A DNA stretch of 64,000 nt from Bacteriovoracia bacterium (GTDB lineage: Bacteria; Bdellovibrionota; Bacteriovoracia; Bacteriovoracales; Bacteriovoracaceae): assembly GCA_030431635.1 (NCBI GenBank), contig JAUIIL010000002.1:186001-250000 (forward strand), in the 5' to 3' direction. Both the position numbers and the translations under genes were made by a program. The notes beneath the pieces are model-generated. The model was not told the DNA's origin, did no database searches, and saw only the letters and a list, made by a program, of their open reading frames with translations. Positions 1,719-15,256 of the stretch are shown one piece after another (the stretch's first letter is position 1; each line of letters begins with the position of its first letter).

Positions 1719-3842
1719 ATGAGAGTCCTGATACTTGATTCGGATTCAGAAAGAACAAAACACCTAAGTTCGAGAATGCCTGTTGGGGTGGATGTTATTG
1801 TTTATGCTGAGCAAGAGGCTTTCTTTAAAGATCTTGAAGAAAATGAAAGTGAGAGTGTCGTTATTCTTGATATGGACGCCCTAGGGAATAATTTATCAAA
1901 AGTTAATGAAAGACTTCTTATAAACTTTGCCGAGGCCAAAAGATTTTTTGTCACAGAAAAGTTAGGGCCAAATGATTTAAGGGAGCATCAGCAATCACCA
2001 GATGGAGCTGATGGGTACCTAAAGCTTCCATTAACAAGTCATGTCTTATTCAATATTTTTTCCGCATACGGCATAGAAGGTATTGAAATATCAGAAGAAC
2101 CAGATAAAGACGAAGAAGAAGAAAAAACATTGTTTGAAAACGAAGGGATTAACCCTGATGAACCAATAGGTGATGAACTTATCAATCAAAAAGTTCAAAA
2201 TATCTTCGATGCAGCTTTTTCTCAAAGTCCTATGTTTGACTTAAGTAATGCAGAGGTGGGAGAAATTGATTTAGGGCAAGTTGGTGGAGTCGATGATACT
2301 CTCATTTTGAGTGATAAAGAAGAGACTGAAAGTAATGAACTAGATCTTTCAGGGATGGATGATGAAGGACTTTCGCTCTCTGATAAACTACCAGGAGAGG
2401 AAATTGATCTCTCAGGTTCAGATGATGAGCTTATTTTATCAGAAGAGACTCAAAGTGATGAATTAGATCTCTCTGGGATGGATATGGATGATGAGGGACT
2501 TTCGCTCTCTGATGAACTACCAGGAGAAGAAATCGATCTCTCAGGTTCAGATGATGAGCTTACTTTATCAGAAGAGACTGAAAGTAATGAACTAGATCTT
2601 TCAGGGATGGATGATGAGGGACTTTCGTTATCTGATGAACTACCAGAGGGTGAGATCGATCTCTCTGGTCCAGATGACGAGCTTATTTTATCAGAAGAGA
2701 CTGAAAGTAATGAACTAGATCTCTCTGGGATGGATATGGATGATGAGGGACTTTCGCTCTCTGATGAACAGCCAGAGGGTGAGATCGATCTCTCTGGTCC
2801 AGATGACGAGCTTATTTTATCAGAAGAGACTCAAAGTGATGAATTAGATCTCTCAGGGATGGAAGATGAGGGACTTTCGCTCTCTGATGAACTACCAGGA
2901 GACGATATTTCTTTTGATTCTCAAAGTGATGAGTCTATAGAAGAAAACGCTCTTGAGGCCCTCGTTGCAGATGAAACTCAGGGTGAAGATTTCAGTGCTG
3001 ATTTAAATGGAGAAAATGAGACAAGTGCTTACCTTCAAGAAGAAAATCTAGAAGATGATTTACCAAGAAACTATCCATCGGCTGAAGATCTTGAGGAGCC
3101 TTTACTACCTGAGAGAAAAGCTACAGAAAATTTAATTACTGAAGAAGAAGTCCATTCTCAAGAGCCAGAACGTGAAGAAGAGATTTCTTTTGATTTAAAA
3201 GAAAAAGAAGCTCTGAAGGAAATTGATGAATTTCATACTCAAAAACTCTCAAGTTTAGCACAAACCATCAGAGAATTAAGAGAAGATAGAGATGCACTGG
3301 CCAAACGTCTCTCCTCAGCAGAGAGTGAAAGTGATTTAACAAGACAAGAAGAGCTTGGTCTTAAGGCCCAATTAGATGAAAAGAAAATTGAACTTAAGCT
3401 TTTAAAACGTAAATATGAAGATCAAATCGATGAGTTTCAATACCGTTTAAAATTAAGTGAAGAGCGCAGAGATATTGCCACTGAAAAGCAAAAACTTTTA
3501 ATGGAAGAGGTTGGAAAACTAAACCAAAAAGTCCGTTTGGATTTAAAGAAAATCCAATCAAGAGAAAGAGAGTTAGAAAGTCAACTAGAGCTCATTAAAG
3601 CAGATGCTGACATTCAAATCAAAAATAGAGACAGGGCCATACTTGAACTTAAGAGAAAAATTGATTCTTTAGAGTTTGATATGGAAACAATGAGCCAACA
3701 AGAAGAAAAACACCTAAATACTAGAGTGGATCTTGAAACCAAACTATCAAGAGTCATGAAAACATTGCGTTCTGCTTTAACTTTACTAGATGAAGTTGAT
3801 ATAAAAGAAATAGAAGCTCTTAAGAAAGATCTCAATTTATAG
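1719..3842 (+). CDS. Receiver-like domain + acidic LS-rich repeats + long coiled coil (AglZ/FrzS-like layout)
   Basis: The 707-residue protein has three parts. Residues 1-120 resemble a response-regulator receiver: an acidic LDSDS start, an Asp in VVILDMD near 52, and a Lys in YLKLP near 102. Residues about 195-400 are acidic tandem repeats built from short DLSG, LSLSD and LILSEE blocks. Residues about 480-700 are strongly heptad-like and rich in Glu, Lys and Leu, so probably a long coiled coil. The layout recalls the myxobacterial polarity and motility proteins AglZ and FrzS (receiver plus coiled coil), but this is resemblance by architecture only. There is no signal peptide, so it is cytoplasmic. 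It leads a run with the diguanylate cyclase (7-base gap) and the phosphoesterase. GAGAGGG lies upstream of the ATG. Confidence 0.75.
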   Translation: MRVLILDSDSERTKHLSSRMPVGVDVIVYAEQEAFFKDLEENESESVVILDMDALGNNLSKVNERLLINFAEAKRFFVTEKLGPNDLREHQQSPDGADGYLKLPLTSHVLFNIFSAYGIEGIEISEEPDKDEEEEKTLFENEGINPDEPIGDELINQKVQNIFDAAFSQSPMFDLSNAEVGEIDLGQVGGVDDTLILSDKEETESNELDLSGMDDEGLSLSDKLPGEEIDLSGSDDELILSEETQSDELDLSGMDMDDEGLSLSDELPGEEIDLSGSDDELTLSEETESNELDLSGMDDEGLSLSDELPEGEIDLSGPDDELILSEETESNELDLSGMDMDDEGLSLSDEQPEGEIDLSGPDDELILSEETQSDELDLSGMEDEGLSLSDELPGDDISFDSQSDESIEENALEALVADETQGEDFSADLNGENETSAYLQEENLEDDLPRNYPSAEDLEEPLLPERKATENLITEEEVHSQEPEREEEISFDLKEKEALKEIDEFHTQKLSSLAQTIRELREDRDALAKRLSSAESESDLTRQEELGLKAQLDEKKIELKLLKRKYEDQIDEFQYRLKLSEERRDIATEKQKLLMEEVGKLNQKVRLDLKKIQSRERELESQLELIKADADIQIKNRDRAILELKRKIDSLEFDMETMSQQEEKHLNTRVDLETKLSRVMKTLRSALTLLDEVDIKEIEALKKDLNL
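2320..2920 (+). repeat. In-frame tandem repeat, alternating 123 and 129 bp units
   Basis: Units begin at about 2320, 2443, 2572, 2695 and 2824, each starting GAAGAGACT. Successive lengths are 123, 129, 123 and 129 bases, then a partial fifth. The 6-base difference is an extra Met-Asp pair (GMDMDD against GMDD). The alternation means the array probably grew by duplicating a 252-bp two-unit block. Each unit contains four shorter blocks: DLSGMD, EGLSLSD, EIDLSG and DELILSEE. Confidence 0.9.
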
Positions 3843-6382: not shown

Positions 6383-7612
6383 TTGAAGTTTATCTTGTTG
6401 GTTCTTTTAACATCTATTTTGGGAAGAGCGAACGTTCTCTGTTTATCAAGTTTTAATGCAGATTCGAAGGTTTTAACCCAAAAGTTTATTGCCTTGATAG
6501 AAGAGTCGCATAAAGAGAATTTGCTCGATCTTGAGGATTTGAAAGATATTTTAGTTCACCTTGAAAAAAAAACTCCTTTTAATCCTTTTGAATTAAAAGA
6601 AATCAATAATGAAACACGTCTTTATGGTGAGGTTTATCAAGAGTATCTGGATGAGGCGCAGCTGATAGAAGAGGAAATAGGCCACTATCTTAAGAAAAAA
6701 ATTTCAGCGAGCGAAGAGCTAAAAAGAACTCAAAAAAAGATTTCCCAAGAAGTGAAGCAAAAAGCACTAAAGATAGAGTTTGCAGCAGTCAAAAGAGGAT
6801 GGAAGGTAAGAAGTAAAATAGCTAAAGTTCCACTATTCACCTCTGTTCCTTATTCTTTTGAAGTTATGGCGGCTCCCGTAACAAACTCCCAGTTTGAAGA
6901 GATTTTTGGGATTAGTTCAGGATCTTCAGAAAGTATTTCAAATGGGCTTATCGAGCACGCAGATCTTCCTTTTGTTGGTGGAAATCTAATTTCTGCGATG
7001 CTTTTTGCTAATAAATTATCAGAAAAGCATAACCTTCCACCGACCTATGTGTTCATCAATATGAAATGGAAGGTATCACCTCAAGAGAATATCTATCATC
7101 CCATTCCAGAGAGTGGAGAAATAAGAATAAATACAACGGGAAAGTATACCAAGACACTGGGGTATCGTTTACCAACGGCATTTGAGATGAGGTTTTTGCA
7201 AGATAAAACAAAACTTCAGATGAAGCAAAGTGGAGCTTCCGTTACCGACTTCGGTTGGTTTGCTCCTAACTCACAACTCCAGCTTAATCCTGTAGGGTTA
7301 AAAGCTGGAGTCAAACTTGATGATGGAGAGGTTTTTGATATCTGGGGTAATAGTAGAGAGATATTATGGGGGTTTCCTGAAAATGGAGAAGCTCAGTTTT
7401 GGGGACCTGAAACTAGATATAGATGGTTTTTTAAAGCAAAACAAAGAACACAGCTCATCTTTCCTTTTGATGAAGAGAGAGGCTTTATCTATACGAGTAG
7501 TAACAATAGTAGTTCTCCAGTTTTTAAGAGTGAAATATCTGCTGAATATTTAACCTGGTCTCTGGCCAGATATAATAAGCATTCTTTTAGGCTTGTAAGA
7601 ACTCTCAAGTAA
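6383..7612 (+). CDS. Exported SUMF1/FGE-fold protein, paralogue 1 of 3, lacking catalytic Cys
   Basis: It starts with TTG at 6383 (AAAGG eight bases upstream) and a signal peptide, MKFILLVLLTSILGRA. Just after it is CLSSF, part of a Cys-x3-Phe motif shared by all five proteins of this operon. Residues about 20-110 form a helical N-terminal domain also present in the two paralogues below. The C-terminal half carries formylglycine-generating-enzyme/sulfatase-modifying-factor motifs: PVTNSQF, GYRLPT, DIWGNSREI and the ending FRLVRTLK. True FGEs use cysteines or copper-binding cysteines to oxidise a sulfatase Cys; here the only Cys is the one near the signal peptide, so catalysis is unlikely. A structural or ligand-binding (C-type-lectin-like) role is more plausible. 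It is the first gene of the operon. Confidence 0.75.
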   Translation: MKFILLVLLTSILGRANVLCLSSFNADSKVLTQKFIALIEESHKENLLDLEDLKDILVHLEKKTPFNPFELKEINNETRLYGEVYQEYLDEAQLIEEEIGHYLKKKISASEELKRTQKKISQEVKQKALKIEFAAVKRGWKVRSKIAKVPLFTSVPYSFEVMAAPVTNSQFEEIFGISSGSSESISNGLIEHADLPFVGGNLISAMLFANKLSEKHNLPPTYVFINMKWKVSPQENIYHPIPESGEIRINTTGKYTKTLGYRLPTAFEMRFLQDKTKLQMKQSGASVTDFGWFAPNSQLQLNPVGLKAGVKLDDGEVFDIWGNSREILWGFPENGEAQFWGPETRYRWFFKAKQRTQLIFPFDEERGFIYTSSNNSSSPVFKSEISAEYLTWSLARYNKHSFRLVRTLK

Positions 7613-7718
7613 TTATAACTACTTAAAATTAAATGATTTTTATAAAAATTACAAAAAGAGAAAGAAAAAGTATTCAACTTGCTTGCAATGCGTTAAAAAG
7701 TGGCAACCAAGGATTTTT

Positions 7719-9239
7719 ATGCGCTTTATTGCTTTGTTTTTCATACTCACTCTTCCTCACCTTGTTCATGCACTAGGAAGAGGGGTGAAATGCGATACTA
7801 ACTTTGATGAACCACATATTAAGGTTGACCTTGAGAACGACGGGGCCTATCAGGGGCTGACCCAAAAAGGGATTGAGTTAATTCAAGAAAGTCGTGAAGC
7901 TCTTGATTCAAGATTAAAAATATTCGCTCAAAGAGTTCTTGGAATGCCTACAATTCATCATGCTGCCATGGTTGCACGTCTAACTAATTTCCATATGTTT
8001 TTATATGGCCCAAAGGGTGGGGCCAAAACGATGTTTGTAGAGGAGATGTTTAAAGCAGATCACGCAATAGATAAAGATGCCTTTAGACTACAACTTCATC
8101 AGATGATGAATGAGCAGCCTTTGGTTGGAGGGCAAACACTTGAGAGTGCTAAAAATGTCGATTATGAAATTAAAACTGAAGGGACAATGGTTGAGAGTAA
8201 ACTTGCTTCACTTGATGAGTTAGATAAAGGAAACCCGATTCTTTATGGCCCTCTTCTTTCTATCCTCAATGAGGGTAAAGTTCTCGCTGGTCAGAAAGAA
8301 ATAGAAGCTCTTGTTCAAACTGTTTTTGCCACAAGTAATGCAAACCTTCCCGAGTTTTTAGAAATTCTTGAAAATAGCGATTTAAAATCAACTGCTCAAG
8401 CTTTTTTAAATCGTTTTCAATTTAAAGTAATGGTTTATAACTGGTTACCTAAGGAGCAGCAAAAGATCTTAGATGAAGCGAAAAGACAGAAAAGCTATGT
8501 TGAGTCAGTTGCTAAATCATATCCTGAGTTAAAAAAGAAGAGTAAGTATTTTGTTGAATACGATAAAGTGGAGTGGAGAAAGCTCTCAGAACTAGCGGAG
8601 CAAGTTTTTGAAATAACTCCAGATCTTCAAGCTGTTTATTTAGATTTTATTGAAAAATACAAAATCAGTGTAAGCGAACGAGTGAAAGAATCACAAAAAG
8701 ATTTTATGAGTAATAAATTAGAGAGAGGATACCCTTACTTTCCAGCGGCGGATTTATCTGAAAGATTAAGAGGGCAATTTTATGATATCATTAAAGCTTC
8801 AGCGATGATCGATTTTTTAAAATCAGATCTCTCTTCTGCTGAAAACTTGGCCAAGATAACTCAAGAGAGAATTAAGCTAGGTCCAAGTTCTTTATGGAGA
8901 GCTTACTTAGGAGCAACTACACTAACTCAGGGAGATGTAAAGCTTGCCTTAAGAATTGAGGGAGAAAAACCTGTCATCTCTATTGATTTTGATTTTGATT
9001 TAGTGGCCCAGAAAAAACTAGCAAGAGACTTACGAGAAGAAGGAATGTTTGAAGATATCGCTTTCGAACAAACAACATTCAAAAGACTACTTGAAAACGA
9101 ACTGGCCTCAGCACAAGATTTATATAGTAACGTCGCTAAATTTGCTTTAAAACCAGATAAACTTAAAGAATCAGATGACTTTGAACTTAGGCTTTTTCTC
9201 GCAAGTGGTGGAGAAATAGAACATATAGATGCTAAATAA
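7719..9239 (+). CDS. MoxR/RavA-type AAA+ ATPase with apparent Sec signal peptide
   Basis: From the ATG at 7719 (AAGGA five bases upstream) the protein is 506 residues. The N-terminus MRFIALFFILTLPHLVHA looks like a cleavable Sec signal with a V-H-A site, followed by CDTNF at 25-29. The AAA+ core is intact: Walker A GPKGGAKT at 97-104, Walker B SLDEL with Asp166-Glu167, sensor 1 ATSN at 204-207 and an arginine-finger-like FLNRF (Arg232). The loop LVGGQ matches MoxR/RavA proteins. These ATPases are normally cytoplasmic chaperones that work with VWA proteins, so export is surprising because the periplasm lacks ATP. It may instead be a signal anchor, or the protein may act in another ATP-containing compartment. 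Its stop overlaps the next start as TAATG. Confidence 0.82.
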   Translation: MRFIALFFILTLPHLVHALGRGVKCDTNFDEPHIKVDLENDGAYQGLTQKGIELIQESREALDSRLKIFAQRVLGMPTIHHAAMVARLTNFHMFLYGPKGGAKTMFVEEMFKADHAIDKDAFRLQLHQMMNEQPLVGGQTLESAKNVDYEIKTEGTMVESKLASLDELDKGNPILYGPLLSILNEGKVLAGQKEIEALVQTVFATSNANLPEFLEILENSDLKSTAQAFLNRFQFKVMVYNWLPKEQQKILDEAKRQKSYVESVAKSYPELKKKSKYFVEYDKVEWRKLSELAEQVFEITPDLQAVYLDFIEKYKISVSERVKESQKDFMSNKLERGYPYFPAADLSERLRGQFYDIIKASAMIDFLKSDLSSAENLAKITQERIKLGPSSLWRAYLGATTLTQGDVKLALRIEGEKPVISIDFDFDLVAQKKLARDLREEGMFEDIAFEQTTFKRLLENELASAQDLYSNVAKFALKPDKLKESDDFELRLFLASGGEIEHIDAK

Positions 9240-12200
9240 TGAAAAAAATAATTTTAATTATTTTTCTTTTTCATTTGGAAATCGTTTATGGTTGTGGAGA
9301 GCATTTTACCTCTAGCTCAGATGAGCTCATCAATAACTATGATAGGACGGTCCAAGAATTAAGACAAAAGTATTCTTATCGGTTAGGAATGGCAAGCGAT
9401 CCTTTTGCACTCTCCTTTAGTTCAGCCAAGTCTGTTATTATTTACAATGACCTCCTAAAAATTAAAAAAAATGGGAAACTAACTGAGACATCTCTTTATT
9501 TTATTCATCATGAACTCATGAAAATAAATAAAGATTTTAATAATGAGTTAATCGAAAATCTCATTAGAGAAACTTCTCAAGCCTTAGAGAGCAAGTTTAT
9601 TTCTCAAAAGGAACTGCAGGCCAATATCCTTGCACTCGATTATATGCAAGAGTACATAAGCCCTTATAAAAAACCTGAAAAAATTGTTGATAAAAATGGA
9701 AATGAAGTAGAAGAAGCAAAATCTAACGAGGAAGAAAAAAAAGAAGAATCTCAAAAAGAAAAAAAGAAAACTGAGGAAGAAGAAGGACCAGAATCTTATC
9801 CCAAGTTACCAGAAGAGTATAAACCTCAAACATCTGACATTAATAATGGAGAAGATGGTAAGAGTCAAAAAAAGTTCAGAATAGCTGAAGTGAATACCAA
9901 GGTTAAGTATTTTGCCCAACGATATTTTACTAATATTAACCTTAATTCAACACATCCATTTAAGCAGAGTGAACTTCTTCAAGCTCCTCAGGTTGGAAAG
10001 TATAGAAAAGAAGAAATATCAATGAAAGTTTATCCTAAAGGGGAGAGAGAAATAGAGCTCTATATTCCATCCGGAATGAAACCTTTAGAGTCTTCTGATC
10101 CAAGAGTAAAAATTAAGCCGAATAAATTTGGAGGATATAAAGCTCAGATGAAAAAAGAAGTAGAGAGCTTTGATGTCCCCTTAGTAGAGTTGAATAATGT
10201 TAAACTCAATCCTGTTCATCGAAATATTCTGACCCGCCCTATTGGTATCCCTAGAGAGCAATGGCCAGATGAAATCCATGCAAATATATTTAATAAATTT
10301 GATCCGAGTAAAAAACATGATCCTTTAGAAGTTGCTAAGAGTATAGAATCTTTTATTCAAGAGCATTATCTTTATGCAACCAAAGAGAAGCCTGAAACTC
10401 ATCCAACTGATGCACTGAAAGCTGGTAGCTTTCAGTGTGATATGGCCGCATTTGCAATGGTGGCCCTATTAAGAGATCAGTACCAAATTCCTTCAAGAGT
10501 AATAGGAGGTTTTACTGGAAGTGTGTATAAAGGTGGTTCAGATAGAATGACTTACCTCGTTTATCCCACTGATGGACATGCTTGGATAGAAGTTTATCAT
10601 GATGGAAAGTGGCATACCTATGATCCAACTCCCAAAACAAAAGAGTCAAAAGAAGAGCAGCCTAAAACAGAGAGTGATTACTCACCTGTTGTTGATGAAG
10701 AGAATGACCAAGCCAGAGAGAGTCAAGAGCAGAGCGAGTCAGAAAAGAAAGAAGGAGTCAGTGAGCAAGAGGAAAAAACAGATTCTGAGAATCAAGAAGA
10801 GAGTGCTAGCAGTAAAGAGAAAAGTGAAGGGAAAAAAACTGAAGGAGAGGATGCTAAGGAAGAAGGCGAGGAGTCTAGAGATAAAAGTGGTTCTAAAGAG
10901 GAGGAAGGAGAGGAGAGCGCAAAAGTTAGAGAAATGTCTCAAGATGAACTTATCAAGCAGCTTGAAGTTGGTTCTGTAGATTTGCGGCCAAAAAATGAAA
11001 ATCGCTATCTTGTAAAAAGGGCCCTTAGAGTAATGTTTAGAGAGTTACTGGACCCTAGAAAATCAAGTTTTGATATTATTCAAAAAATAAATTTAGTCGA
11101 AAAATTGATGAAAGAAAGTGTTAATAGCAATTTCTTTGAAATTTTTCAAAAAGCTAAAATAATTCATCAAAAAAAACATCCACGCTTATCTGATTGGATA
11201 ACGGAGGTTGGGTATGACAGTAAAAAACAAGATGTCAACGAAACCTATAGAGAACTTAATCGTATCATTCAATCTATTGAGCTTTACTCAAAGCTTCTTG
11301 ATCAAGGAGGAAACGTTGATGTTCCTTATGAGCTTTTGGGTAATTTACGAAGAGCATTAGGTAATCTTGAAGAGTTAGCTCATCCCAATGCGAAAGAAAT
11401 GGCCATTGTTTCTGATTTTACAAAAAACTTTCAACAAGTCCCTCTGAAACTTCTTGAGCAAAAATTCAACTTCAAAAAAGTAGGGGATAATCAAGCTACA
11501 TATGATATTGCAAACAAACTTGTAGAGGGTAAACTCAACGATTTAAGATTGTTGTCAATACTAACACCCTTGACTGACTTTATTCTTGATTCCTCTCCAA
11601 AACCGGAGGGGAAAATCATTAAAACTTGGCAACGAAATTTTTCTCGTCCTATGGGAAAAGACTTCTTACCTCTAAGTCGTCCAAGTGATATTTATAAGGC
11701 CTTCAAAACTCAACCTCAAAAATCAATTGAAGAAAATATTAGAGAGGGTACTGCTTTTGTCAGAACAAGAAGAAGGCAACAAAAAATCTTAAATGGTTAT
11801 TCAGAAGAAGATTCAGAGAAAATTTCAATAGTTCTTTATGATACTTCTGGGAGTATGAGTGGAGATCCTGCGGCATTTCAAGCGGGTCTTATTGGTGCTT
11901 TTACAGGTAGGGCACTAAGCGATACTTCTCCAAATGGAAGAATTAGGCACAAAGTTGTTATTCTTCCTTTTGACAGTGTTCCTCAAACTCCGGTTGTTGT
12001 TGATTCGCAAGCAAAGGCACTTGAAATTATAGAAAACTACAAAAAGGAGTTATCAAATACAATGGGGGGCACTAATATCACTGCTGCTTTAAACCAGGCT
12101 TTTGCTTTGATCGCAGATGCACAAAATCGAAATGGAGATCCTCTAGCAAGTGCAAACATTATTCTCATGACTGATGGAGATGATTCTGTTGATATAGAGG

Positions 12201-12796
12201 CTTTAGAAGCTGCTAGAGGGGCAATCGACCGAGCAACTCCCCTTCAGATGATGTTTATTGCTATTAACAAAACCAACCCAAGCTTAAGAAATTTTGCGAT
12301 TGAGTCAGATAAAATCAATGTAAAGAGAGGGTTTTATGAAGAGTTTGATAGTCAAAAGATTAGAGAGATTTTAAAAGAGTCAGAAAAAGTTAATGTGGAT
12401 AAGGACTTTTATTATACCAATAAAGAAGCAGCATCAATACCATCTTCTTTTAGTACCTCTATCAAAAATGCTCAAAAAAGAGCATCAGATTTCCAAGCAG
12501 AATTATCAAAACTAGATTACCCCAGAACACCAGATGAGCACTATGAAGATGTTAAGAAAGTGAAATGGCCGAATCAGGAAATGATTGAAAGAGATCTGGA
12601 AAATAATTTTATTCGACTAAGGCAACTTATTATGCATCCAGTTTTTAAAGACAAGGACCTTCTTGCAAAAATTAATGACGATATTATTAAAAACTTTGAA
12701 ACAATTACAGGGATAAAGTTTTCAGAACTCTCAAAAAGAGAGCTTGAGTTATTAAGACATTTTATTAGAGAGTCAGGTGCCTCTCATGAAAAATAA
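9239..12796 (+). CDS. Exported transglutaminase-like + VWA domain fusion protein
   Basis: The 1185-residue protein starts with a hydrophobic signal (MKKIILIIFLFHLEIVYG) and CGEHF at 19-23. VYGC is a poor lipobox, so lipidation is possible but unsure. A transglutaminase-like core has the full catalytic triad: Cys400 (GSFQCDMAAF), His447 (DGHAWIEVY) and Asp462 (YDPTP). A Glu/Lys/Ser-rich linker at about 465-565 follows, with a second such patch at 145-185. The C-terminal VWA domain has a complete MIDAS: DTSGS at 868-872, Thr945 and Asp979 (TDGDD), so it should bind a divalent metal and a partner. Next to the MoxR-type ATPase it resembles the RavA-ViaA arrangement. The transglutaminase fold may act as protease, crosslinker or deamidase. 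It overlaps both neighbours. Confidence 0.85.
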   Translation: MKKIILIIFLFHLEIVYGCGEHFTSSSDELINNYDRTVQELRQKYSYRLGMASDPFALSFSSAKSVIIYNDLLKIKKNGKLTETSLYFIHHELMKINKDFNNELIENLIRETSQALESKFISQKELQANILALDYMQEYISPYKKPEKIVDKNGNEVEEAKSNEEEKKEESQKEKKKTEEEEGPESYPKLPEEYKPQTSDINNGEDGKSQKKFRIAEVNTKVKYFAQRYFTNINLNSTHPFKQSELLQAPQVGKYRKEEISMKVYPKGEREIELYIPSGMKPLESSDPRVKIKPNKFGGYKAQMKKEVESFDVPLVELNNVKLNPVHRNILTRPIGIPREQWPDEIHANIFNKFDPSKKHDPLEVAKSIESFIQEHYLYATKEKPETHPTDALKAGSFQCDMAAFAMVALLRDQYQIPSRVIGGFTGSVYKGGSDRMTYLVYPTDGHAWIEVYHDGKWHTYDPTPKTKESKEEQPKTESDYSPVVDEENDQARESQEQSESEKKEGVSEQEEKTDSENQEESASSKEKSEGKKTEGEDAKEEGEESRDKSGSKEEEGEESAKVREMSQDELIKQLEVGSVDLRPKNENRYLVKRALRVMFRELLDPRKSSFDIIQKINLVEKLMKESVNSNFFEIFQKAKIIHQKKHPRLSDWITEVGYDSKKQDVNETYRELNRIIQSIELYSKLLDQGGNVDVPYELLGNLRRALGNLEELAHPNAKEMAIVSDFTKNFQQVPLKLLEQKFNFKKVGDNQATYDIANKLVEGKLNDLRLLSILTPLTDFILDSSPKPEGKIIKTWQRNFSRPMGKDFLPLSRPSDIYKAFKTQPQKSIEENIREGTAFVRTRRRQQKILNGYSEEDSEKISIVLYDTSGSMSGDPAAFQAGLIGAFTGRALSDTSPNGRIRHKVVILPFDSVPQTPVVVDSQAKALEIIENYKKELSNTMGGTNITAALNQAFALIADAQNRNGDPLASANIILMTDGDDSVDIEALEAARGAIDRATPLQMMFIAINKTNPSLRNFAIESDKINVKRGFYEEFDSQKIREILKESEKVNVDKDFYYTNKEAASIPSSFSTSIKNAQKRASDFQAELSKLDYPRTPDEHYEDVKKVKWPNQEMIERDLENNFIRLRQLIMHPVFKDKDLLAKINDDIIKNFETITGIKFSELSKRELELLRHFIRESGASHEK

Positions 12797-14093
12797 CGTT
12801 TTCCTCAAAATTGTTTTGTTGTTTATCTCTTTTAATGCGTTTTCCTCCACCGTCTGTATACAGCATTTTCAGTCTCCACAAGAAACAAATGATGTTGTCC
12901 AAGTCTTTTTTTCTTTTCTTGACAAGCTTATTGACGAAAATATTATTGAAAAAGATGATCTGGCAGAGCTTTTAAATTCCATTGAGAATAATGAGGTTTC
13001 AAATATTTTCTTGCAAAAAAATATAAATTTAAAAAACGAAGTTTATGAAAAAATTTATTTAGATTATAGGGATTTTTTCAACGATGAACTTAAAAATAAT
13101 AACGGAATAAAAAAGAAGTTATTAGATGAATTAAAAGTTAGGTATCAAGGGGAAATAAAAACAGCTCAGGAAATGAAAGAAGTCTCTCAAGATGTTAAAG
13201 TGTTAGTCTCTCCACCTGAATTTATGACGGTTCGTCCAGGAGGTTATGAGGTTAGACGAGGCACTTGGCGTAGTAGAAAAGCTGAGTTAACTTTTTCTTT
13301 TGATGTAACTCAAACGCTTATCACAGAAGGGCAATGGGCCCAAGGTTTCGATGTAAATCTATCTTACTCCCATGAAAATGGTAATGTTTATTTGATGAGA
13401 AACAATGAAAAGATCCCCCTCGAAAATCCTGTAAGAGGTGTTACTTTGTATTCTGTTCTTGTCTATTTAAATAATCTTTCTGAAAAGCGTGGGTATCAAA
13501 AAGTATATGACTTAAGTGAAGTCAAGTGGGTACAGGGGACGAGTGCTTACGAGGGTAATTTACAAAAAGAGAGTGGTGAAATTCGTATCAATGCTCCTAA
13601 GGAGTATTATTATAAAACAGAAGGATTCAGACTGCCGACATTGGCTGAGCAAGAGTTTATGCTAAAAAAAGCTGTTGATGAAAATGGGCGCTTACTGTTT
13701 GAAGGGCCAAAGACAGATTCTTTTTTGAAAAAATTTGAAGACTACATAGTGAGTGGTAAGGTAGCTGTACAAAAAGTTGCAAGTAAACGACCTTTAATTG
13801 TAGATGGAAACGAAATTTATGATCTACTTGGAAATATTTACCAAATGGTGTGGTGGGGGCGTGAAAGTGAACTTAATGATTCTAAAGATTCAGGTTATTG
13901 GAGCCTTGATAGAAATAACTATCCTCAAGGAGTGAACCCTCTTAAGGAACATCACAACTGGCTCCATGTTAGCTTTGTTGGTGGGAGTGCAGAAGTTTTT
14001 GCAAGACATGATGACTTTCTTCATTTAAGGCATATTGAATTGAATAGGCCATTTCGCTTACTTGGTTTTCGAGCGGTAAGGACTGTTCGATGA
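12786..14093 (+). CDS. Exported SUMF1/FGE-fold protein, paralogue 2 of 3
   Basis: The ATG at 12786 lies inside the end of the VWA gene, overlapping it by 11 bases; a GTG three codons earlier is less likely. The signal peptide MKNNVFLKIVLLFISFNAFS is followed by CIQHF at 24-28. The shared helical N-terminal domain follows, then FGE-like motifs: TQTLITEGQW, GFRLPTLAEQ, DLLGNIYQMV, FVGGSAEVF and the ending FRAVRTVR. Of the three paralogues it keeps the most FGE-like core (VGGSA resembles the GGSW region). It has no cysteine there, so catalysis is again doubtful. The stop overlaps the next start as ATGA. At 435 residues it is longer than typical bacterial FGEs because of the N-terminal domain. 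Confidence 0.74.
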   Translation: MKNNVFLKIVLLFISFNAFSSTVCIQHFQSPQETNDVVQVFFSFLDKLIDENIIEKDDLAELLNSIENNEVSNIFLQKNINLKNEVYEKIYLDYRDFFNDELKNNNGIKKKLLDELKVRYQGEIKTAQEMKEVSQDVKVLVSPPEFMTVRPGGYEVRRGTWRSRKAELTFSFDVTQTLITEGQWAQGFDVNLSYSHENGNVYLMRNNEKIPLENPVRGVTLYSVLVYLNNLSEKRGYQKVYDLSEVKWVQGTSAYEGNLQKESGEIRINAPKEYYYKTEGFRLPTLAEQEFMLKKAVDENGRLLFEGPKTDSFLKKFEDYIVSGKVAVQKVASKRPLIVDGNEIYDLLGNIYQMVWWGRESELNDSKDSGYWSLDRNNYPQGVNPLKEHHNWLHVSFVGGSAEVFARHDDFLHLRHIELNRPFRLLGFRAVRTVR

Positions 14094-15256
14094 AATTGCT
14101 CTTATTCGTTTTTTTTTGCTCATTAATGGCCATATCAACGGAGCTTTGTGACCTCTCTTTTAATGCCACTTCTGAACAAATAACAACCAAGTTTATGGCC
14201 TTTCTTCAGGACAGAGTAGAGGCTGGGGCATTAAATGAGGACGATATTAATGATATGCTTATTGAACTAGAAAGAGGTGTTCTTATTAATCCTTTTGCCT
14301 CAAAAAGTATTAGCAAGGAGAACGAACTTTATGGCAAAATTTTTCAAGAATACTTAGAGGAAGCTAATTTAAGAAAAAAAGATGTCTTAAAATGGTTAGT
14401 TAAAATCATCAACAAAGAAAAAAATAGAACTTCACAAAAAAATGCTGTGAGTATGGAAGTGAAAGGAGCTTTTTTACAAATTCAGTTCGCTCCCATTTCC
14501 CCTGGAAGCGTAACAAGGAGAGTGGGACCAAATAGAGGTACAGCAAGGGTAACAAGACCAATTGAAGTAATGACCACTCCAGTAACGAATGCTCAATGGA
14601 GTGAAATTTTCAATTATGGCGAGAAAAGTGATTTGCCTCATACTGGTAGTACTCTTTATTCTAAACTTGTTTTTGCCAATAAGCTTTCTGAAAAAAAAGG
14701 TTTTAGACCTGTTTACAATCTTTCTCAGATGCAGCAAGAACCCTTAACATCAGCAGAAGAAGGAACTCTTAAGTTTAAACTTGAAAATGGGATGTTAGGA
14801 TTTTCTCATCAAAATTATTATGAGTCTGAAGGTTACCGACTTCCCACTCATGATGAACAACTTTTACTCATGAAGCTTGCTAACTTAGAACTTGGTCCTC
14901 ATGAATCTATTTTTGAGTACGCCTTTGTTGATCAAAACTCAGAAAAGAAAATGAGGGAGGTTGGAGAGAAAAAACCTATTTATATTGGAGATTTTGCTTT
15001 CTATGATGTTTTTGGAAACGTCTCAGAGCAATCAATGACAAGCGATTCAGAGCTTTTGACCGATTACCCCGCTTTAATGATAAAGACTCCAAAGTTTTTA
15101 TCGGACTATCAGTACTATAGTGATTCTTCTCCTGCTATTTATTCCACAGGAAGCTATAAAAATGGTGTTTATAATTTTTTTTCAATGCCCTCTCAAAGTC
15201 CCATTGCCAAAAATAAAGATATTGGATTTCGTTTGGTGAGAACTCTAAAAAAATAG
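14090..15256 (+). CDS. Exported SUMF1/FGE-fold protein, paralogue 3 of 3, last gene of operon
   Basis: It starts with ATG in an ATGA overlap with paralogue 2. The signal peptide MKLLLFVFFCSLMAIS is followed by CDLSF at 20-24. The N-terminal domain (about 20-115) is closest to that of paralogue 1: both have CxxSFNA, a KF pair, an acidic helix (EDDINDML here, LEDLKDIL there) and NPF. FGE-like motifs are PVTNAQW, GYRLPTHDEQ, DVFGNVSEQ and the ending FRLVRTLKK. No cysteine is seen in the FGE-like domain. A perfect inverted repeat right after the stop closes the operon. The three paralogues probably arose by duplication and then diverged, which fits a family of binding partners more than three copies of one enzyme. 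Confidence 0.74.
   Translation: MKLLLFVFFCSLMAISTELCDLSFNATSEQITTKFMAFLQDRVEAGALNEDDINDMLIELERGVLINPFASKSISKENELYGKIFQEYLEEANLRKKDVLKWLVKIINKEKNRTSQKNAVSMEVKGAFLQIQFAPISPGSVTRRVGPNRGTARVTRPIEVMTTPVTNAQWSEIFNYGEKSDLPHTGSTLYSKLVFANKLSEKKGFRPVYNLSQMQQEPLTSAEEGTLKFKLENGMLGFSHQNYYESEGYRLPTHDEQLLLMKLANLELGPHESIFEYAFVDQNSEKKMREVGEKKPIYIGDFAFYDVFGNVSEQSMTSDSELLTDYPALMIKTPKFLSDYQYYSDSSPAIYSTGSYKNGVYNFFSMPSQSPIAKNKDIGFRLVRTLKK

Follow-up and report, generated by a model that had tools for sequence, protein, structure and literature searches.

The window analysed here, a 64,000-nucleotide stretch of contig JAUIIL010000002.1 from a Bacteriovoracia bacterium, contains an operon for an exported MoxR-type AAA+ ATPase, an exported transglutaminase-VWA protein and three exported FGE-like proteins, all of which carry Cys-x3-Phe after the Sec signal peptide. 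We found this motif to be one version of a five-residue N-terminal tag with an invariant, usually lone Cys and a Phe, Leu or Tyr four residues further on (+4). The tag recurs in 24 operons from 23 genomes across the phylum, its residues co-vary between the non-homologous ATPase and VWA proteins of an operon, and it extends to unlinked exported proteins of the same genomes. We propose, with a probability of about 0.55, that it acts as a docking or sorting tag specific to each genome, which signal peptidase I exposes and a single shared partner reads, probably via the lone Cys.

Five exported proteins with a common motif

Each of the five proteins has a hydrophobic Sec signal peptide followed by Cys-x3-Phe, at the residues given by a first-pass annotation of this DNA (Table 1). 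A simple rule placed a signal peptidase I-like site 0, 3, 3, 3 and 6 residues ahead of the tag Cys in the five proteins, and this Cys was the only one in the mature proteins except for the catalytic Cys400 of the transglutaminase-VWA protein. The annotation's remark that four of the five lack a convincing lipobox was borne out, only the protein encoded at 9239 being lipobox-like, with VYG directly before the Cys.

The motif spans three independent families, MoxR AAA+ ATPase, transglutaminase-VWA and FGE-like. The annotation's remark that the ATPase, the transglutaminase-VWA protein and the FGE-like proteins are otherwise unrelated held between these families; the FGE-like proteins encoded at 6383, 12786 and 14090 are homologous and have a common helical N-terminal domain, which makes the independent families three and not five. 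Because three families are involved, common descent of all five tagged proteins was rejected, in agreement with the annotation, and its idea of a signal common to unrelated proteins stood. Beyond the tag, no common N-terminal domain was seen between the MoxR and VWA proteins; the helical domain, which has no Pfam match, occurs only in FGE and propeller proteins.

Walker A (GPKGGAKT) and Walker B are intact in the window MoxR protein, as are, by alignment, Cys400/His447/Asp462 and the DTSGSM metal-site motif in the transglutaminase-VWA protein. The FGE-like proteins of the window have no Cys outside the signal peptide and tag, and so lack the catalytic FGE cysteines. In the 14090 protein the helical N-terminal domain is followed by an FGE fold, while the 6383 protein has no Pfam match of its own and is recognized by its homology to the other two. 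The C-terminus of the FGE proteins reads FRLVRTLK, and the tagged proteins end in soluble domains.

To gauge the background frequency, which the annotation had proposed as a check, we drew a 387-kb sample, ~12% of the genome, from the window and 17 other stretches, and considered the first 20 mature residues of soluble proteins predicted to be exported and not encoded in the operon. Cys-x3-Phe was found in 0 of 101 such proteins, and C-x3-[FL] in 1 of 101.

Table 1. Genes of the tagged operon in the window and positions of their tags
Feature	Position	Strand	Details
Exported FGE-like (C-type-lectin-fold) protein	6383..7612	+	409 aa; TTG start; single Cys
Tag CLSSF, residues 20-24 of 6383 protein	6440-6454	+	
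Exported MoxR-type AAA+ ATPase	7719..9239	+	506 aa; Pfam bpMoxR (PF20030) E=9.7e-15, above cut-off
Tag CDTNF, residues 25-29 of 7719 MoxR protein	7791-7805	+	
Exported transglutaminase-VWA protein	9239..12796	+	1185 aa; Pfam Transglut_core 1e-12, VWA_2 1.6e-6
Tag CGEHF, residues 19-23 of 9239 transglutaminase-VWA protein	9293-9307	+	
Exported FGE-like protein	12786..14093	+	435 aa; FGE-sulfatase PF03781 match below cut-off
Tag CIQHF, residues 24-28 of 12786 protein	12855-12869	+	
Exported FGE-like protein	14090..15256	+	388 aa; Pfam FGE-sulfatase PF03781 4.9e-5, just above cut-off
Tag CDLSF, residues 20-24 of 14090 protein	14147-14161	+	

The tag in other operons and in unlinked genes

We searched alignments of the MoxR and VWA proteins against 369 genomes of the phylum, operons being selected by homology and not by the motif. 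Among 26 operons, the tag was present in both MoxR and VWA in 24 and in neither in two (G024 and G343), with no discordant case. This spread over 23 genomes, together with the unlinked genes described below, overturned the suggestion that the signal is peculiar to the window operon. Where conservation of both Cys and Phe in orthologues had been put forward as a check, the Cys was kept whereas the Phe was replaced by Leu or Tyr, with the same residue used operon-wide; judging from these sequences, Phe at +4 is not essential for the tag, the residue being Phe, Leu or Tyr by genome.

The whole operon is syntenic in G094, a genome of the same family, where all six exported proteins have C-x3-Leu and beta-propellers replace the FGE part in two of them; seven further, unlinked G094 genes with the same N-terminal domain also have Leu at +4. 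In other genomes' operons the beta-propellers sit on separate proteins. Tags within an operon could be identical, with CEDLF on both the MoxR and VWA proteins in G188, CEDFY on both in G204 and CSNIF on three proteins in G168, and in two G206 operons each of the nine listed proteins had C-x3-Tyr.

For a statistical comparison of MoxR with VWA in the 24 operons, the tag Cys was assigned automatically as the last Cys within the first 75 residues and the pairs were shuffled 200,000 times. The +4 residue was identical in 20 of 24 operons (shuffle mean 7.8, maximum 18; p=5e-6). Agreement also exceeded chance at +1 (p=0.006) and +3 (p=0.003) and was weak at -2 (p=0.03), with none above chance at -3, -1 or +5 to +10. 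With one operon per genus, 17 of 21 had the same +4 residue in both proteins, against an expectation of 7.4 (p<=1e-5), and family f6 alone also showed the co-variation (p=0.008). Because the MoxR and VWA proteins are non-homologous and their likeness ends at the tag, unlike what descent or leader exchange would give, these data favour a common reader.

Exported MoxR AAA+ proteins with a Sec signal peptide were found in some 25 genomes, with Walker A intact in every operon examined and Walker B intact in the close-orthologue alignment. The P-loop, GPKGGAKT in the window, is GPPGGAKS/T in most others; only G170 and G277 have GPPGTAKS or GPAGTAKS. Almost all operons whose tags match have kept the transglutaminase Cys, and where the VWA protein lacks the transglutaminase domain (G170, G282, G210 and G343) the tag was mismatched or absent; this is only a hint that tag coherence is linked to that domain, as G277 and G024 break the rule and possibly a single clade is concerned. 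When a wider contig collection was searched, a weak test of spread beyond the phylum, the MoxR protein query gave no match and the alignment only the G094 contig.

The MoxR genes themselves vary. Several genomes encode a MoxR with two AAA+ modules (L135, L136 and L167-L176), which in G188, G173 and G284 is transcribed divergently from the VWA gene; an FGE domain at its C-terminus was confirmed for G188 and indicated for G173. In G024, most of eight exported-MoxR gene matches (L053-L060) lack the tag and, in the stretches read, FGE or VWA neighbours; one of these genes has an in-frame TGA.

G188 and G204 were then searched for DNA encoding the tag of their own operon. In both genomes the operon's tag recurred on exported proteins encoded far away from it (CEDLF for G188, CEDFY for G204), and around these matches lay further tagged proteins, with CFDLF in G188 (L230) and CRRYY and CVNFY in G204 (L231). 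Four of these five unlinked proteins have no further Cys in the mature part. In a random 400 kb of G206, four exported proteins had C-x3-Tyr and none had Phe or Leu (Tyr versus Phe/Leu against other samples, Fisher p=0.015). No Pfam match above cut-off was obtained among the unlinked tagged proteins scanned, and 200-kb samples of two operon-free genomes, a small sample, contained no single-Cys C-x3-[FLY] protein. The three G204 proteins lie together in a 19-kb region of contig 39, in which no MoxR or VWA gene was seen.

A possible reader for the tag

In the reading we prefer, signal peptidase I would remove the Sec signal and so uncover C-x2-x-[F/L/Y] as an N-terminal tag. The tag would label the whole exported machine, that is the MoxR ATPase, the transglutaminase-VWA protein and the FGE or beta-propeller ligand-binding proteins, as well as some exported proteins encoded away from the operon in that genome. 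One common partner would bind all tagged proteins after export, sensing the +4 residue (and partly +1 and +3) with a hydrophobic pocket, while the lone Cys would bond covalently, by a disulfide or by thiol acylation. The ATPase, the VWA protein and exchangeable variable binding proteins might thereby be gathered in one place, at the cell surface or on the outer face of the inner membrane, and co-evolution of pocket and tag would fix F, L or Y in each genome. We prefer a covalent role for the Cys because it is invariant and usually alone while its neighbours drift. Disulfide formation is possible, since each of the seven genomes checked has a gene for a VKOR-type disulfide-forming enzyme; DsbB was found in none of the seven.

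Several observations weigh against this proposal. The signal peptides were called by a home-made simple rule and not by SignalP. The +4 residues were mismatched in four operons (G281, G170, G282 and G210), and the shuffling does not fully remove shared ancestry. Several operons hold just the two core genes. In G024 a transglutaminase-VWA protein and several exported MoxR proteins all lack the tag, so the machine can exist without it; G340 has a tagged (CSSLL) homologue of an unlinked G188 protein, and the MoxR/VWA operon was not detected there. No candidate reader or modifying enzyme for the tag was found.

The tag may instead be a label for a second step of secretion, by which Sec-exported proteins are sent on through the outer membrane or into an adjacent cell, so that the ATPase would find ATP there. 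The tagged ATPase has an intact Walker A in every operon examined, and ATP is not known to occur in the bacterial periplasm; all components are tagged, as expected if the machine must exit as a whole; and predatory bacteria occur in this phylum. However, the operons come without an accompanying translocon gene, the exported MoxR-VWA systems of G024 and G343 are untagged, and such a label would not require an invariant Cys, which makes this route unlikely in our estimation. We are somewhat more sceptical of an unusual lipoprotein signal, in which the Cys would be acylated by Lgt or another enzyme for membrane anchoring. The invariant Cys does lie near the signal peptide and is usually the sole Cys outside an active site, and MYXO-CTERM offers the precedent of a lipobox-free Cys tag sorted to the surface (PMC11980579). 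Yet Gly, Ala or Ser precedes the Cys in only 20 of 79 proteins (the commonest residues being Lys, Ser, Gln, Arg and Glu), the Cys is mostly 2-8 residues past a signal peptidase I-like site, and a reader of lipoboxes would be indifferent to Phe, Leu or Tyr at +4. Since the residues preceding the Cys do not fit a lipobox, this was rejected as the main explanation.

Recombination within a genome could also swap signal-peptide ends, so that the tag is copied and not selected. The leaders of the FGE family are plainly copies of one another, and the likeness in G204 extends a few residues past the tag (CEDFYKNDY and CEDFYRSDY). Between MoxR and VWA, though, it is limited to +1, +3 and +4, with a weak -2, and this mismatch outside the tag largely refutes leader exchange, to which we give very little credence. 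Chance or shared amino-acid composition has the shortness of the motif in its favour but is refuted by the empty background of 101 proteins, by the co-variation and by identical five-residue tags on unlinked genes, and can be put at practically nil.

Sorting of exported proteins normally relies on lipoboxes or C-terminal tags. It is conceivable, at somewhat less than even odds, that the docking tag proposed here represents a new class of bacterial address: a Cys-centred five-residue N-terminal tag, laid bare by normal signal peptidase cleavage, by which dozens of unrelated exported proteins per genome would be brought to one extracytoplasmic ATPase machine via a dedicated, co-evolving reader. 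No sorting-signal model matched in an NCBIfam scan, and we found no account of such a tag among the open-access papers searched. If correct, the proposal would add a further way to address or assemble exported proteins, by a tag that follows the signal peptidase I site and whose recognition residue shifts together in unrelated proteins, and would provide a sequence rule by which tag clients could be found in any of the phylum's genomes. The system also presents the puzzle of an exported MoxR-type ATPase with intact ATP-binding motifs, and its variable binders, where ATP is unexpected.

Related systems and the FGE-like repertoire

The exported system is best called a relative of the MoxR-vWA ternary systems that lies outside their beta-propeller class proper. 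As in that class (PMC7159879), a MoxR of bpMoxR type, a VWA partner and propeller or FGE components are co-encoded, the Pfam bpMoxR family being named after the class (Kaur et al. 2020, PMC7159879). Membership fails because the VWA architecture and P-loop differ: in the window VWA protein Transglut_core and VWA are the only domains matched, with no propeller of its own seen, and GPKGGAKT departs from the frequent GxxxTAKS-type P-loop. Every component here, unlike those of the ternary systems, has a Sec signal peptide; 'signal peptide' and 'secreted' are absent from the text of Kaur et al. 2020 (PMC7159879). Effector-associated domains (EADs) are small adaptor domains common to differing proteins of one system, with neighbouring copies most alike (PMC7159879). 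The tags resemble them in that neighbouring copies of one genome are more similar to each other than to those of other genomes (p=5e-6), but the common element here is a five-residue tag and not a small folded domain.

Like PEP-CTERM, LPXTG, GlyGly-CTERM and MYXO-CTERM, the tag is a short sequence on many unrelated exported proteins, and it shares with MYXO-CTERM an invariant Cys without a lipobox (PMC11980579). MYXO-CTERM-type tags comprise a C-terminal Cys motif, a transmembrane helix and an Arg-rich tail, whereas the present tag is N-terminal, follows a signal peptidase I-type signal, includes neither a membrane helix nor a basic cluster and differs from the CTERM and LPXTG tags in its genome-specific +4 residue. 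A sortase-like partner is not known for it. A lipoprotein lipobox likewise has its Cys near the end of the signal peptide, but here the residue before the Cys is unconstrained, a signal peptidase I site lies ahead and the +4 residue is fixed. RavA-ViaA is also a MoxR-VWA pair, and a weak RavA match (NF010054, E=1.9e-5) was obtained, but RavA-ViaA is cytoplasmic and has no signal peptide, transglutaminase domain or tag.

This genome encodes 17 FGE-like paralogues: three in the window, a tandem array of ten on contig 1, a single copy on contig 6 and another three on contig 9. All 17 retain the tag Cys; 15 have Phe at +4 and the other two have Met. The ten tandem genes (L048 7102-18360; G000 contig 1, 20102-31360) have near-constant N-termini, the tag and helical domain being 80-90% identical and the distal FGE part down to 25-30%, so that the set looks like a repertoire of binding proteins that share a constant end for attachment. 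For the 14090 protein, an AlphaFold2 model built from five sequences (mean pLDDT 61; N-terminal domain good, distal part poor) placed the tag at a low-confidence junction preceding the helical domain, and its sole significant PDB match was the Treponema denticola variable protein TvpA (2y3c, E=1.5e-4).

C-type-lectin (CLec) and FGE sensors have been placed beside MoxR and VWA genes (PMC10907252). The window proteins resemble TvpA and the CLec/FGE sensors diversified by diversity-generating retroelements in being variable C-type-lectin/FGE-fold binders adjoining MoxR and VWA genes; they differ in their N-terminal tag and in that no RVT_1 reverse transcriptase was found in this genome. Retroelement diversification was rejected here for that reason, and the FGE-like diversity probably arose by gene duplication.

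Upstream of the operon, the window encodes an L,D-transpeptidase (YkuD) whose C-terminal domain is of Cds6 type (588-1589) and an acidic protein (1719-3842) with many imperfect ELDLSGMDDEGLSLSDE-type repeats between its N-terminal part and a coiled coil-like end.

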